In this document: one piece after another, positions 31,625 to 38,375 of the stretch
Layout of the letters: each line of letters starts with the position of its first letter
How positions within the stretch are numbered: position 1 is the stretch's first letter
Assembly (NCBI RefSeq): GCF_003031265.1
Contig: NZ_CP019966.1
Coordinates: forward strand, 1,240,001-1,304,000
DNA: 64,000 bases
Origin: Rhodopseudomonas palustris
Lineage (GTDB): Bacteria; Pseudomonadota; Alphaproteobacteria; Rhizobiales; Xanthobacteraceae
Direction: 5' to 3'
Notes under the pieces: generated by a model
Seen by the model: only the letters and a program-made list of their open reading frames with translations
Database searches by the model: none
Told to the model about the DNA's origin: nothing
Position numbers and translations under genes: made by a program

Positions 31625-31651
31625 TGTCGGCCAAGGACGACGATGATCGTC
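31625..31651 (+). promoter_or_regulatory. Candidate ECF42-dependent promoter of the DGPF-sigma operon
   Basis: TGTCGGC (31625-31631), exactly 16 bp, then CGTC (31648-31651), ending 24 bp before the ATG of the DGPF gene. The identical motif with identical spacing precedes the other DGPF gene (34951-34977). ECF factors of groups 41 and 42 are known to use TGTC-type -35 and CGTC-type -10 elements. Confidence 0.7.
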
Positions 31652-31675: not shown

Positions 31676-32047
31676 ATGCTCTACGCCATCCTTTGCTATC
31701 ACGACGAGAATTTCGTCGGTTCCTGGAGCCGCGAAGAAGATGCCGCCGTGATGGAGAAGCTCAAGGCCGTGCACGGCAAGCTCGCCGAGGCCGGGCGGCT
31801 CGGGTCGGTGGCGCGGCTGCTGCCGACCACGGCGGCGACGACGCTGCGCAAGGATTCCGAGCCGCCGGTGGTGATCGACGGTCCGTTCGCCGAGACCAAG
31901 GAGCAATTGCTCGGCTTCTACGTGGTCGAATGCGAGGACCTCGATGGCGCGCTCGACGTCGCGCGCGATCTCGGCCGCGCTAATCCGGGTGGGGCTTATG
32001 AAATCCGTCCGATCGGATTGTTCATGCCGGGGACCATGCAGCCATGA
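31676..32047 (+). CDS. YCII/DGPF-domain protein, partner of ECF42 sigma factor
   Basis: 123 residues. Dimeric alpha-beta YCII fold with the hallmark VVIDGPFAETKEQLLGFYVVE. The start MLYAILCYHDENFVGSW is typical. DGPF proteins are the genetic partners of ECF42 sigma factors, and their biochemical role is unsettled. AGGGAGACGC precedes ATG 31676. The stop overlaps the sigma gene start (ATGA at 32044), giving translational coupling. A candidate ECF promoter lies immediately upstream. Confidence 0.9.
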   Translation: MLYAILCYHDENFVGSWSREEDAAVMEKLKAVHGKLAEAGRLGSVARLLPTTAATTLRKDSEPPVVIDGPFAETKEQLLGFYVVECEDLDGALDVARDLGRANPGGAYEIRPIGLFMPGTMQP

Positions 32048-33312
32048 CCGATCTCGCCTGGATCGAGACCGCGATCACCGCCGCGCGGCCCCAGGCGATC
32101 GGCGCGCTGCTGCGCTACTTCCGCGATCTCGACACCGCCGAGGAGGCGTTCCAGAACGCCTGCCTGCGGGCGCTGAAATCCTGGCCGCAGAATGGGCCCC
32201 CGCGTGACGCTGCCGCTTGGCTGATCATGGTCGGCCGCAATGTTGCGATCGACGATCTGCGCCGCGGCAAGAAGCAACAGCCGCTTCCCGATGACGCGGC
32301 GATTTCCGATCTCGACGATGCCGAGGACGCGATCGCCGAGCGGCTCGACGGCTCGCATTATCGCGACGACATTCTGCGGCTGCTGTTCATCTGCTGTCAC
32401 CCGGAGCTGCCGCCGACCCAGCAGATCGCGCTGGCGCTGCGCATCGTCTCGGGACTGACGGTGCCGCAGATCGCGCGTGCGTTCCTGGTGTCCGATGCGG
32501 CGATGGAGCAGCGCATCACCCGCGCCAAGGCCAAGGTCGCGCGGGCCGGCGTGCCGTTCGAGAGCCCCGGCGCGGTCGAGCGCGCCGAGCGCCTCGGCGC
32601 GGTAGCGGCGATGATCTACCTCGTCTTCAACGAGGGTTACTCGGCCGCTGGTGAGACCGCCGGGGTTCGCGCGCCGCTGTGCGAGGAAGCGATACGGCTG
32701 GCGCGGCTGCTGCTGCGGCTGTTTCCGTCCGAGCCGGAGATCATGGGGCTGACGGCGCTGATGCTGCTGCAGCAGGCCCGGGCGCCGGCGCGGTTCGATG
32801 CCGGCGGCGAGATCGTGCTGCTGGAAGATCAGAACCGCGGCCTGTGGAACGCCACCATGATCGCCGAGGGGCTGGCACTGATCGACAAGGCGATGCGTCA
32901 CCGCCGAACCGGCGCGTATCAGATCCAGGCCGCGATCGCGGCTCTGCACGCTCGCGCGCCGCGTTACGAAGACACCGACTGGGCGCAGATCGATCTGCTG
33001 TACGGCTCGCTCGAAATCCTGCAGCCATCACCGGTGATCACGCTCAATCGCGCGGTGGCGGTGGCCAAGCTGCGCGGACCGGAGGCGGCGCTGGCGATGA
33101 TCGAGCCGCTCGAAGCGCGGCTCGGCAGCTACTTTCACTATTTCGGCGCCAAGGGCGCGCTGCTGCTGCAGCAGGGACGCGGTGATGAAGCCCGCGTCGC
33201 CTTCGATCGGGCTATCGCGCTCGCTCGCACTCCCGCCGAGGCCTCGCACATCCGGATGCATCTCGATCGGCTGATGCAGGAGAGCGAAGCCGCGGGGCGT
33301 GCGAGTGCATAG
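32044..33312 (+). CDS. ECF sigma factor, group 42, with TPR-like C-terminal extension
   Basis: 422 residues, about twice the size of a standard ECF factor. Region 2 is at about 10-80 (ALLRYFRDLDTAEEAFQNAC, RDAAAWLIMVGRNVAIDDLR). Region 4 is about 115-170 (LTVPQIARAFLVSDAAMEQR, RITRAKAKV). Then a long all-helical extension with VFNEGYSAAGE, RLARLLLRLFPSEPEIMGL and YGSLEILQPSPVITLNRAVA, the DUF6596/TPR-like part diagnostic of group 42. These factors have no anti-sigma; the extension is thought to control activity. Co-operonic with a DGPF protein. Confidence 0.92.
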   Translation: MTDLAWIETAITAARPQAIGALLRYFRDLDTAEEAFQNACLRALKSWPQNGPPRDAAAWLIMVGRNVAIDDLRRGKKQQPLPDDAAISDLDDAEDAIAERLDGSHYRDDILRLLFICCHPELPPTQQIALALRIVSGLTVPQIARAFLVSDAAMEQRITRAKAKVARAGVPFESPGAVERAERLGAVAAMIYLVFNEGYSAAGETAGVRAPLCEEAIRLARLLLRLFPSEPEIMGLTALMLLQQARAPARFDAGGEIVLLEDQNRGLWNATMIAEGLALIDKAMRHRRTGAYQIQAAIAALHARAPRYEDTDWAQIDLLYGSLEILQPSPVITLNRAVAVAKLRGPEAALAMIEPLEARLGSYFHYFGAKGALLLQQGRGDEARVAFDRAIALARTPAEASHIRMHLDRLMQESEAAGRASA

Positions 33313-34681: not shown

Positions 34682-35014
34682 GCGGTTCTCTCCCCAGTCT
34701 GCAGAGCCGTTGCTGCGGCCCGCGGGCATCACGATCGGAGATGACCTGCACCGCGCAGGCACAGCCCGGCGACGATGCGCCAGACCTGATCGTTGATGAG
34801 ATACGCTGAACACCCCGCGACGACCATTCGCACTTAGAGTCCCCACTCTGCGAATAGTGACGTTCGATAGGCTGGTGGCTCAATGCGGCGGCAATTTGTC
34901 GGCGGTTTGGTGCGCTGACGTGCACTGCACTGCAAATCTTTCGCATCGTATGTCGGCGCGTGCCGTTACCGATCGTCTTCAAGCTGCCAATCCAATCGAG
35001 CAGGGAGAGTGATG
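34682..35014. other. 333-bp intergenic stretch before the second DGPF gene
   Basis: Only the ECF42-like promoter motif at 34951-34977 and a tandem TGCACTGCACTGCA at 34920-34933 stand out. No other gene is supported on either strand. Confidence 0.6.
34951..34977 (+). promoter_or_regulatory. Candidate ECF42-dependent promoter of the stand-alone DGPF gene
   Basis: TGTCGGC (34951-34957), 16 bp, then CGTC (34974-34977), ending 37 bp before the ATG. Both elements and spacing are identical to 31625-31651; both -10 parts sit in GATCGTCTT or ATCGTCTT. Confidence 0.7.
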
Positions 35015-35431
35015 ATGCGTTTCATGATGCTGATGATCCCGAAGGGGTACGAGGCGGCGCAGCCGGGCGTGATGCCGGATGCCGCCGCTGTCGCCGCGAT
35101 GATGAAGTACAACGAAGCGCTGCAGCAGTCGGGAGTACTCATTACTTGTGACGGTTTGCATCCGCCCTCGATGGGCGCTCGCGTCAGCTTTGATACCGGC
35201 AAACCGGTCGTCACCGACGGCCCGTTCGCCGAGGTCAAGGAAGTTCTCGGCGGCTACTGGATGATCGAAGTTGCGTCGCGGGAGGAGGCGATCGCCTGGG
35301 CGATGCGCTGCCCGGCCGGACCGAACGAGATCATAGAGATCCGGCAAGTGCAGGAGATGGCCGATTTCCCGGCCGACGTGCAGGCCGAAGCCGCCGGCTT
35401 CGAAGCCATGCAGGCGGCCGCCCGGCGTTGA
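35015..35431 (+). CDS. YCII/DGPF-domain protein, second copy
   Basis: 138 residues. MRFMMLMIPKGYEA opens the protein and VVTDGPFAEVKEVLGGYWMIEV is the DGPF core; RCPAGPNEIIEIRQVQEMADF ends the domain. It belongs to the longer PhnB-like/YCII subgroup common beside ECF42 factors. No sigma gene follows it, but its leader has the same promoter-like motif as the DGPF-sigma operon, so it is probably a second target of that sigma factor. AGGGAGA favours ATG 35015 over 35012. Confidence 0.88.
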   Translation: MRFMMLMIPKGYEAAQPGVMPDAAAVAAMMKYNEALQQSGVLITCDGLHPPSMGARVSFDTGKPVVTDGPFAEVKEVLGGYWMIEVASREEAIAWAMRCPAGPNEIIEIRQVQEMADFPADVQAEAAGFEAMQAAARR

Positions 35432-36963: not shown

Positions 36964-36990
36964 TGTCACACCGCGCTCCGCTGTCTCGTC
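36964..36990 (+). promoter_or_regulatory. Candidate ECF41 promoter
   Basis: TGTCACA (36964-36970), 16 bp, then CGTC (36987-36990), ending 28 bp before the ATG of the CMD-like gene. This matches the autoregulatory promoter described for ECF41 factors. The ECF41 gene is the second gene of the operon. Confidence 0.78.
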
Positions 36991-37018
36991 CTATGCTCGT
37001 CAACCAAGGGAGACGACC

Positions 37019-37486
37019 ATGACACCGCGCCTCAACCCCGCCACTGCCGCGCCCGACGCCTACAAGGCGATGGTCGCGCTGGAGAAGTACATCCAGGGCA
37101 GCGGCCTCGAATCCAGCTTGATCGAACTGGTCAAGATGCGCGCCTCGCAGATCAACGGCTGTGCATTCTGCCTCGACATGCATAGCAAGGATGCCCGCGC
37201 CCGTGGCGAGACCGAGCAGCGGCTGTATCTGCTCAACGCTTGGCGGGAATCGCCGCTCTACACCGATCGCGAGCGCGCCGCGCTCGGCTGGACCGAAGCG
37301 CTGACACTGGTGGCGCAAACCCAGGCGCCGGACCCGGACTACGCAGCCGTGAAGTCGCATTTCAACGACGCCGAGCAGGTCAATCTGACGTTGCTGATCG
37401 GTGCGATCAACACCTGGAACAGGATCGCGATCGGCTTCCGGATGCTGCATTCGACCCCGGCCGCGGCGCATGCCAAGGCCTCCTGA
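37019..37486 (+). CDS. Carboxymuconolactone decarboxylase/AhpD-like protein, partner of ECF41
   Basis: 155 residues, helical. The redox motif CAFCLDMHSKDAR has Cys48 and Cys51 with a following His. The family includes peroxidases with an AhpD-like CxxC. ECF41 sigma factors are typically beside one protein of the carboxymuconolactone decarboxylase, oxidoreductase or epimerase type, and this is the first kind. AGGGAGACGACC precedes the ATG. The sigma gene starts inside its 3' end (overlap 17 bp). Confidence 0.9.
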   Translation: MTPRLNPATAAPDAYKAMVALEKYIQGSGLESSLIELVKMRASQINGCAFCLDMHSKDARARGETEQRLYLLNAWRESPLYTDRERAALGWTEALTLVAQTQAPDPDYAAVKSHFNDAEQVNLTLLIGAINTWNRIAIGFRMLHSTPAAAHAKAS

Positions 37487-38375
37487 TCCAGCTCCATCCG
37501 AAGATGCCGCAGCGAGCTTCGCGCCGCTGCGGCCGCGGCTGTTGCGCGTTGCTTATCGGATGCTGGGCTCGATCAGCGAAGCCGAAGACGTCGTGCAAGA
37601 TGCTTACTTGCGTTGGCACCGTGCTGATCGCCGCGAGGTCCGTGACCCGGCTGGCTTTCTCACGCGCACCGTCACCCGTCTGTGTCTCGACGTGCTGAAG
37701 TCGGCGCGACAACAGCGCGAGACCTATGTGGGGCCGTGGCTGCCGGAGCCGATCATCGCCCCGGAGCCTGAGCCTGATGGCGACGATATCACCCTCACTT
37801 TGATGCTGGCCCTCGAGCGGCTGTCGCCATTGGAGCGGGCCGCGTTCCTGCTGCACGACGTGTTCGGTGTCGGCTTCGATGAGATCGCGACGACGCTCGG
37901 ACGTGACGCGGCCGCCTGCCGCCAGCTTGCCGCGCGAGCGAGGGCGCATGTCCGTTCCGAGCGGCCGCGCTTTCCCGTCTCGGCAGAGCAGGGGCAGGCG
38001 ATCGCGGCCGCGTTCTTCCAGGCCTCGCGGAGCGGCGATCTTGGCGCGCTGACGTCCTTACTCGCGGACGAGGTGGTGTTCGTCAGCGATGGCGGCGGCA
38101 AGCGGCCGGCCGCACTCAATCCGGTGCGCGGCCACGATCGGGTGATGCGCCTGCTGGAGGGAATCGCGCGCAAGACAGCTGCGGGGGCGAGTTCGCTGCT
38201 TGCCGTCCAGCTGATCGACGGCCTGCCTGGCTTTGTCTCGCGGGAGCCGGACGGCCTGATCCAGACCACGGCGCTCGAAATCGCAGGCGGGCGGATCGTC
38301 GCGATCTACGTTGTTCGGAACCCCGACAAGCTCCGGCATCTGGTCCTCGGGTCGCCCTCTGGCGGTCTGCACTGA
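37470..38375 (+). CDS. ECF sigma factor, group 41, with SnoaL-like C-terminal domain
   Basis: 301 residues. Region 2 (RLLRVAYRMLGSISEAEDVV, QDAYLRWHRAD) and region 4 (LSPLERAAFLLHDVFGVGFD, EIATTLGRDAAACRQLAARA) are intact. They are joined to a SnoaL/NTF2-like C-terminal domain. The three diagnostic ECF41 motifs are all present: GPWLPEP in the linker, DGGGK in the extension, and NPDKL at the C-terminus. In this group the extension acts as a built-in modulator, replacing an anti-sigma. ATG 37470 overlaps the CMD-like gene. Upstream open frame back to 37401 is antisense of nothing but lacks similarity. Confidence 0.92.
   Translation: MPRPPDPAPSEDAAASFAPLRPRLLRVAYRMLGSISEAEDVVQDAYLRWHRADRREVRDPAGFLTRTVTRLCLDVLKSARQQRETYVGPWLPEPIIAPEPEPDGDDITLTLMLALERLSPLERAAFLLHDVFGVGFDEIATTLGRDAAACRQLAARARAHVRSERPRFPVSAEQGQAIAAAFFQASRSGDLGALTSLLADEVVFVSDGGGKRPAALNPVRGHDRVMRLLEGIARKTAAGASSLLAVQLIDGLPGFVSREPDGLIQTTALEIAGGRIVAIYVVRNPDKLRHLVLGSPSGGLH

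Follow-up and report, generated by a model that had tools for sequence, protein, structure and literature searches.

Matching promoter-like sites before two DGPF genes of Rhodopseudomonas palustris point to a small scattered ECF42 regulon, with sigma factor residue 155 covarying with the -35 element

The two promoter-like sites found upstream of the DGPF genes in the R. palustris window (by which we mean the whole stretch of 64,000 nucleotides analysed) are very likely promoters of one ECF42 sigma factor that would serve a small scattered regulon and whose -35 specificity would reside in the sigma4 recognition helix; this reading is drawn from sequence comparisons. The first predicted ECF42 promoter (31625..31651, plus strand; TGTCGGCCAAGGACGACGATGATCGTC), with the -35 element TGTCGGC and the -10 element CGTC, precedes the DGPF-sigma operon, and 24 bp separate it from the ATG at 31676. 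The second one (34951..34977, plus strand; TGTCGGCGCGTGCCGTTACCGATCGTC) precedes DGPF gene 2, with 37 bp between the site and the ATG at 35015. Inspection of the window confirmed the positions, spacing, strand and distances to the ATG codons that the first-pass annotation had reported for the two sites, but the bases common to both, TGTCGGC-N13-GATCGTCTT, make up a longer stretch than it had stated.

DGPF gene 1 (YCII, PF03795; 31676..32047, plus strand) overlaps with its stop the start of the gene for the 422-residue ECF42 sigma factor (32044..33312, plus strand). In this protein Pfam recognised Sigma70_r2, Sigma70_r4_2 and DUF6596 (PF04542, PF08281 and PF20239), and no sigma3 family was found among the Pfam families of the sigma factor (window:32044-33309), PF04542 and PF08281 being present. 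The long C-terminal extension comprises about 250 residues past sigma4; DUF6596 occupies residues 183-284, and Pfam gave no TPR family. The DGPF/YCII gene in front of the sigma gene and the form of the presumed target promoter, TGTCG(A/G)-N-CG(A/T)C, seen at both window sites, are consistent with ECF42 membership. No anti-sigma gene was seen among the neighbours examined with Pfam (DUF1348, two TetR, CMD and short-chain dehydrogenase genes). DGPF gene 2 (YCII, PF03795; 35015..35431, plus strand) lies only 1.7 kb past the sigma gene in this genome, the interval being occupied by a short-chain dehydrogenase gene on the opposite strand and small ORFs, and it is followed by a TetR gene and then by a CMD gene and an ECF41-like sigma gene at 37.0-38.4 kb. 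The genome contains exactly two PF03795 matches at E <= 0.001, both of them the DGPF genes of the window; what had been annotated as the only two DGPF genes of the window are thus the only two of the whole genome.

An 11-base pattern may recur by chance when a genome is rich in G+C, and this has to be weighed as an explanation for the two sites. TGTCGGC-N16-CGTC has two exact matches in the window, which are these two sites only; when up to two mismatches were allowed, 52 matches were observed in the window versus 51.5 expected. Genome-wide (one contig, 5,269,926 bases) there were 10 exact copies, compared with 7 for the reversed-pattern control, which implies that the 11 bases by themselves are near background and that the evidence is borne by the placement of the motif, not by its rarity. 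The initial claim that chance was improbable is therefore upheld by position and conservation and fails for the bare motif; the situation named at the outset as speaking against the promoters, numerous matches of equal quality scattered at random, was in part encountered, as 8 of the 10 exact copies lie elsewhere, one of them before a PF06983 gene. That copy (G000:C1:4787135-4787161) is located 40 bp before the gene and has GATCGTC at the -10 position, as do the two window sites and none of the other exact copies (3/10). The shorter pattern TGTCGG-N17-CGTC gave 22 matches in 5.27 Mb (reversed control 10). From these 22 matches, the chance of finding one on the right strand within 60 bp before a given gene can be calculated as about 1.3e-4, a post hoc figure, since the motif was picked after both sites had been seen. 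Four of the 22 matches are situated 24-40 bp before genes, namely the two DGPF genes, the PF06983 gene and a DUF899 gene. The remaining 18 were checked for a nearby downstream gene start, and a long open frame runs across most of them; one match is found 67 bp before an ABC-transporter-like gene (L081). Because scanning with the motif alone performs near background, conservation was used in its place, and the conservation described below (10/10, 8/8 and 7/7 orthologs in the genus, and 17/20 distant DGPF genes versus 0/20 on the reverse strand) makes chance exceedingly improbable.

Close orthologs of DGPF gene 2 (83-100% identity) were found in 10 of the 16 genus genomes, the source genome included, and all ten are preceded by the relaxed motif TGTCG[GA]-N-CG[TA][CT]. 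In nine of them the motif is located 31-37 bp before the start, with CGTT as the -10 element in G011, and in G012 it lies 259 bp upstream, with additional DNA in between. At this G012 locus (L192, G012:C1:2065020-2065306), the motif and the DGPF gene are set apart by repeat-like DNA of about 200 bp, in which a CCCCGGATCAAGTCCGGGG palindrome occurs. The genome G009 has a frameshifted DGPF copy only, and the motif is retained before it (L184, G009:C33:14125-14500). The description of DGPF gene 2 as a second, remote target is supported as far as a second target is concerned; at a distance of 1.7 kb it is hardly remote here, but in G002 and G012 the ortholog and the sigma gene, although they share a contig, are more than 2 Mb apart. 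In addition, a close ECF42 sigma gene (88-100% identity) was present in 11 genus genomes. The motif directly precedes the DGPF gene in seven of them, and in the other four (G002, G006, G011 and G012; L049-L052) a different gene heads the operon, with the motif 30-33 bp before this head. In G002 and G012, the two examined, the heading gene was assigned by Pfam to the glyoxalase family PF00903.

These comparisons also bear on the possibility that the sites are a by-product of duplication, in which DGPF gene 2 and the DNA upstream of it would have been copied as one piece, the common bases being what remains of this event. The two proteins do belong to the same family and their genes are 3 kb apart. 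However, the identity of the proteins in the part that could be matched is only 33%, the 13-base spacers of the two sites differ, the spacers of the DGPF gene 2 orthologs have diverged across the genus while both motif blocks have been kept, and the PF06983 and DUF899 genes bear the motif too. We consider duplication extremely unlikely.

The association between the motif and ECF42 was examined with 79 DGPF matches from 61 genomes, classed by distance to the ECF42 gene (E <= 1e-20). TGTCG[GA]-N16-18-CG[TA][CT] was searched for up to 300 bp upstream, with reverse-strand matches as the control. Among DGPF genes more than 2.5 kb away from the sigma gene in genomes with ECF42, the motif was detected in 17/20 cases (reverse strand 0/20). 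Five of these 20 genes are within 5 kb of the sigma gene (in G006, G009, G013, G051 and G053), and of those located beyond 5 kb or on another contig 13/15 had the motif. The three distant genes that lacked it by our rule were that of G009, one in G032 and one in G041; the G009 failure concerns the frameshifted copy, whose motif falls just within the stretch excluded from the scan. Within 2.5 kb of the sigma gene, a class that includes DGPF gene 2 of the window, the motif was present in 36/55 cases (reverse strand 4/55), and the 19 near-sigma genes without a motif directly upstream include some that are later genes of an operon. In genomes without an ECF42 match, the motif was found before none of the four DGPF genes.

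A further candidate for the control of DGPF gene 2 is the neighbouring ECF41-type sigma factor (37.4-38.4 kb), since its gene is about 2 kb downstream and the -10 element and spacing of its promoter are identical. This operon has, however, its own ECF41-type promoter (36964..36990, plus strand) before the CMD gene at 37019, which corresponds to the ECF41 consensus TGTCACA-N16-CGTC given in the available part of PMC3426412. The -35 element of DGPF gene 2 is TGTCGGC, whereas TGTCACA precedes the CMD gene, and the DGPF gene 2 orthologs likewise have TGTCGG. The 0/4 result for DGPF genes of genomes lacking ECF42 would also argue against ECF41, provided that these genomes have an ECF41 sigma factor. 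Control by the ECF41-type sigma factor is in our judgement very unlikely. The ECF41-type unit of the window (36964-38375), which begins less than 4 kb from the end of the ECF42 gene, comprises the sigma factor and the CMD gene, has a textbook TGTCACA-N16-CGTC promoter and no visible anti-sigma, and is best regarded as a separate system that provides a contrast. In summary, duplication, ECF41 control and chance were rejected as explanations, duplication and chance being already contradicted, the latter by conservation. The predicted ECF42 regulon with DGPF gene 2 as a member, as proposed in the first-pass annotation, agrees with the domains of the sigma factor, a promoter resembling that of Sinorhizobium meliloti, conservation and the co-occurrence with ECF42.

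The regulon in the genus is probably larger than two units, as the PF06983 (VOC-like) gene (G000:C1:4786618-4787094, minus strand) and the DUF899 gene (G000:C1:2403629-2404192, plus strand), both with the motif upstream, can be added as predicted ECF42 targets. In the genus, the motif was found before 8/8 scanned PF06983 orthologs (reverse strand 0/8; the count leaves out one partial match in G006) and before 7/7 DUF899 orthologs (reverse strand 2/7). Altogether 29 of the 34 PF06983 matches and all 22 DUF899 matches were scanned. Outside the genus, only 4/15 scanned PF06983 relatives and 3/8 scanned DUF899 relatives from genomes with ECF42 carried the motif within 200 bp, and the case for these two targets is therefore confined to the genus, the link outside it appearing weak. 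In genomes lacking ECF42, no motif was detected before the PF06983 (0/6) or DUF899 relatives (0/7). PF06983 relatives adjoin ECF42 genes in G017, G018, G019, G034 and G051. The DUF899 gene (L077 1560-2123) ends early, and a DUF899-like tail could be recognised by eye in another frame; it may be frameshifted relative to its relatives, and its ECF42 motif is intact.

The -35 element varies among ECF42 systems, and this variation tracks residues of the sigma factor. Sigma factors at least 50% identical to that of the window have TGTCGG promoters, with the exceptions of TGTCTG (nG464) and GGTCGG (G046a, nG569), and those below 50% have mostly TGTCGA and in a few cases TGTCGT, with TGTCGG in nG571 at 48%. 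In the window sigma factor, the codons for E155 and Q156 of the sigma4 recognition helix are at 32506..32511 (plus strand), and the amino acid at 155 changes together with base 6 of the -35 element. In a first count, Glu155 was present in 63/63 sigma factors with TGTCGG and in 0/54 with TGTCGA/T; for this count five promoter labels among the 89 first-batch proteins were overridden by hand (one changed and four removed, the motifs being judged to be due to chance), one short protein was omitted, and 57 sigma factors were without a label. A second count followed a single rule with no overrides, -35 bases 5 and 6 being left free, and comprised 243 ECF42 proteins of more than 330 residues; 58 of the matches listed were retrieved by their position, which gave 29 new loci, all but one of which (L272) entered the set. 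The motif preceded a DGPF ORF in 161/243 cases, 47 had no motif, and 35 had no DGPF ORF in the fetched DNA. When residue 155 was Glu, base 6 was G in 102/103 and T in one; when it was another residue, base 6 was A in 51/58, G in 4/58 and T in 3/58. Residue 156 behaved similarly towards base 5, which was G for 113/116 sigma factors with Gln156, and C (35/43), T (5/43) or G (3/43) for those with Lys156.

Among the positions whose residue is invariant in the TGTCGG group and rare in the TGTCGA/T group, only 155 is unchanged in both G061a, which is sister to that group and has the promoter GGTCGG, and G019c, which is nested among the TGTCGA types and has the promoter TGTCCG. A scan based on G019c yielded 75 loci, including ones from Acidobacteria, Gemmatimonadetes, Myxococcota and Bacteroidetes, most of them Glu155-Lys156. 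In the combined tree, the Glu-Gln proteins formed one clade (70/70, support 0.98-1.0), and a clade of 65 had 62 Glu-Lys members (support 0.66) and was placed inside a group that contains non-Glu sigma factors (support 0.998). Glu155 is not explained by any one split of this tree (49 errors for the best split), and parsimony requires four changes. By tree splits and parsimony, Glu155 together with G at base 6 thus appears to have arisen separately at least twice, and the independent evidence consists of a few events, not of 103. As the Glu155-Gln156 group is a single clade, other fixed residues are confounded with Glu155, and the second origin differs at 156 as well. A strict motif of the TGTCG type was missing from the 1.5 kb upstream of 27 of the 40 ECF42 genes fetched from further classes of the phylum (L283-L322); the recognition helix of these 27 resembles that of the TGTCGA group. 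A promoter one or two bases away from the S. meliloti YCII-sigma site was found in 3/394 genomes of the family and in 0/61 of one rhizobial genus, and the sigma factors of the three genomes read MEQRITRAK, in line with the prediction.

An alignment to sigmaE suggests how residue 155 could act. By phmmer (E 3e-4), Glu155 and Gln156 align with Arg and Ser of the sigmaE-type helix VRSRIFRAR, and Glu155 aligns with R171 of Escherichia coli sigmaE. In the available part of the structural report, R171 of sigmaE is described as bonding G'-31 on the template strand and S172 as bonding G-34, and R173 and R176 as bonding to G-35 (PMC6713349). Counting the invariant G at base 2 as -35 would place base 6 at -31, and residue 155 would then follow a sensible series, Arg pairing with G', Glu with C' and Ala with T'. 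The sigmaE structures offer no basis for pairing residue 156 with base 5 (-32), which is the weaker half of the proposal. One amino acid, residue 155, thus probably sets which promoter variant is read, judging by the covariation. The general matching of ECF sigma residues to promoter bases is prior art; the covariation of residue 155 with base 6 of the -35 element is apparently new in the open-access literature searched. Todor et al. (2020, PNAS) reportedly matched ECF sigma residues to promoter bases and footprinted regulons. In the larger picture, which we favour with some reservation, ECF42 would be a modular distributed regulon in which a two-residue switch in sigma4 insulates paralogs, Glu155-Gln156 reading TGTCGG, Ala/Ser/Gly155-Gln156 reading TGTCGA, Glu155-Lys156 reading TGTCCG and perhaps Gly155-Lys156 reading TGTCCA, so that a DGPF gene anywhere would join the paralog that matches its -35 element. 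The genome G019 has four ECF42 genes and three -35 variants, but it is metagenome-assembled and might represent mixed organisms.

We propose that RNA polymerase carrying the ECF42 sigma factor would transcribe the DGPF-sigma operon, to which the sigma gene itself belongs (autoregulation), and would also act in trans on DGPF gene 2, the PF06983 gene and the DUF899 gene, and that the C-terminal extension would gate sigma activity, by analogy with studied ECF42 proteins. Glu155 would pair with G at base 6 (presumed position -31, C on the template strand) and Ala/Ser/Gly155 with A at this base, and replacement of Gln by Lys at 156 would pair with C in place of G at base 5. Transcription from the motifs, direct residue-base contact and the position numbering are presumed here, and the regulon may serve small-molecule or oxidative-stress detoxification. 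The motif could instead belong to another regulator or sigma factor, making the link to ECF42 indirect, given that in this organism the motif and ECF42 are linked by sequence evidence; but ECF42 target promoters of S. meliloti bear the motif and the -35 variants track the sigma factor's own residues, and we regard an indirect link as unlikely. With direct ECF42 control, four conserved transcription units in one genus would offer readouts for finding the signal of this widespread sigma group, and the rule that places distant DGPF genes in the ECF42 regulon would supply further ones. Should the residue 155 switch be borne out, the sequence of an unstudied ECF42 would allow its target promoter to be predicted, and it would become possible to distinguish paralogs within one cell or to employ them as insulated parts.

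In Streptomyces venezuelae, Liu et al. (2018) reportedly found that DGPF genes are the main targets of ECF42 sigma factors, that the promoter lies upstream of the operon, that the C-terminal extension is essential and that the -35 element is TGTCGA. This is the variant found here with Ala/Ser/Gly155, whereas the window sites read TGTCGG. A review, in its available part, also describes the ECF42 extension as essential and proposes control through interaction between proteins, the YCII protein being a possible partner (PMC8999054). ECF41 with its CMD target, as far as described in PMC3426412, resembles the ECF42 system here in the apparent lack of an anti-sigma gene, the fused extension and CGTC at 16 +/- 1 bp, and differs in its -35 element TGTCACA, its SnoaL-type extension and its CMD/oxidoreductase/epimerase targets. 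Among the closest known systems is also RpoE10, an ECF42 of S. meliloti, for which the following is taken from the available part of PMC6180224. Its overexpression raised two glyoxalase-like operons, one of them on a different replicon, and the target promoters have TGTCGGA or TGTCGGC followed by CGTC at start sites determined by RNA-seq or 5'-RACE. The TGTCGG..CGTC motif and distant ECF42 targets are therefore already known from S. meliloti (PMC6180224), which qualifies the first-pass statement that ECF42 targets are usually the adjacent DGPF gene only. The YCII-sigma operon of RpoE10 itself was not raised, and at this operon the mapped start and the motif overlap (PMC6180224), which counts against simple autoregulation in S. 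meliloti. Unlike here, the targets named in that part of the report do not include a second DGPF gene or a DUF899 gene (PMC6180224). At the same time, the S. meliloti system shares with the present one the YCII-sigma operon, the TGTCGG..CGTC promoters and a distant target (PMC6180224).
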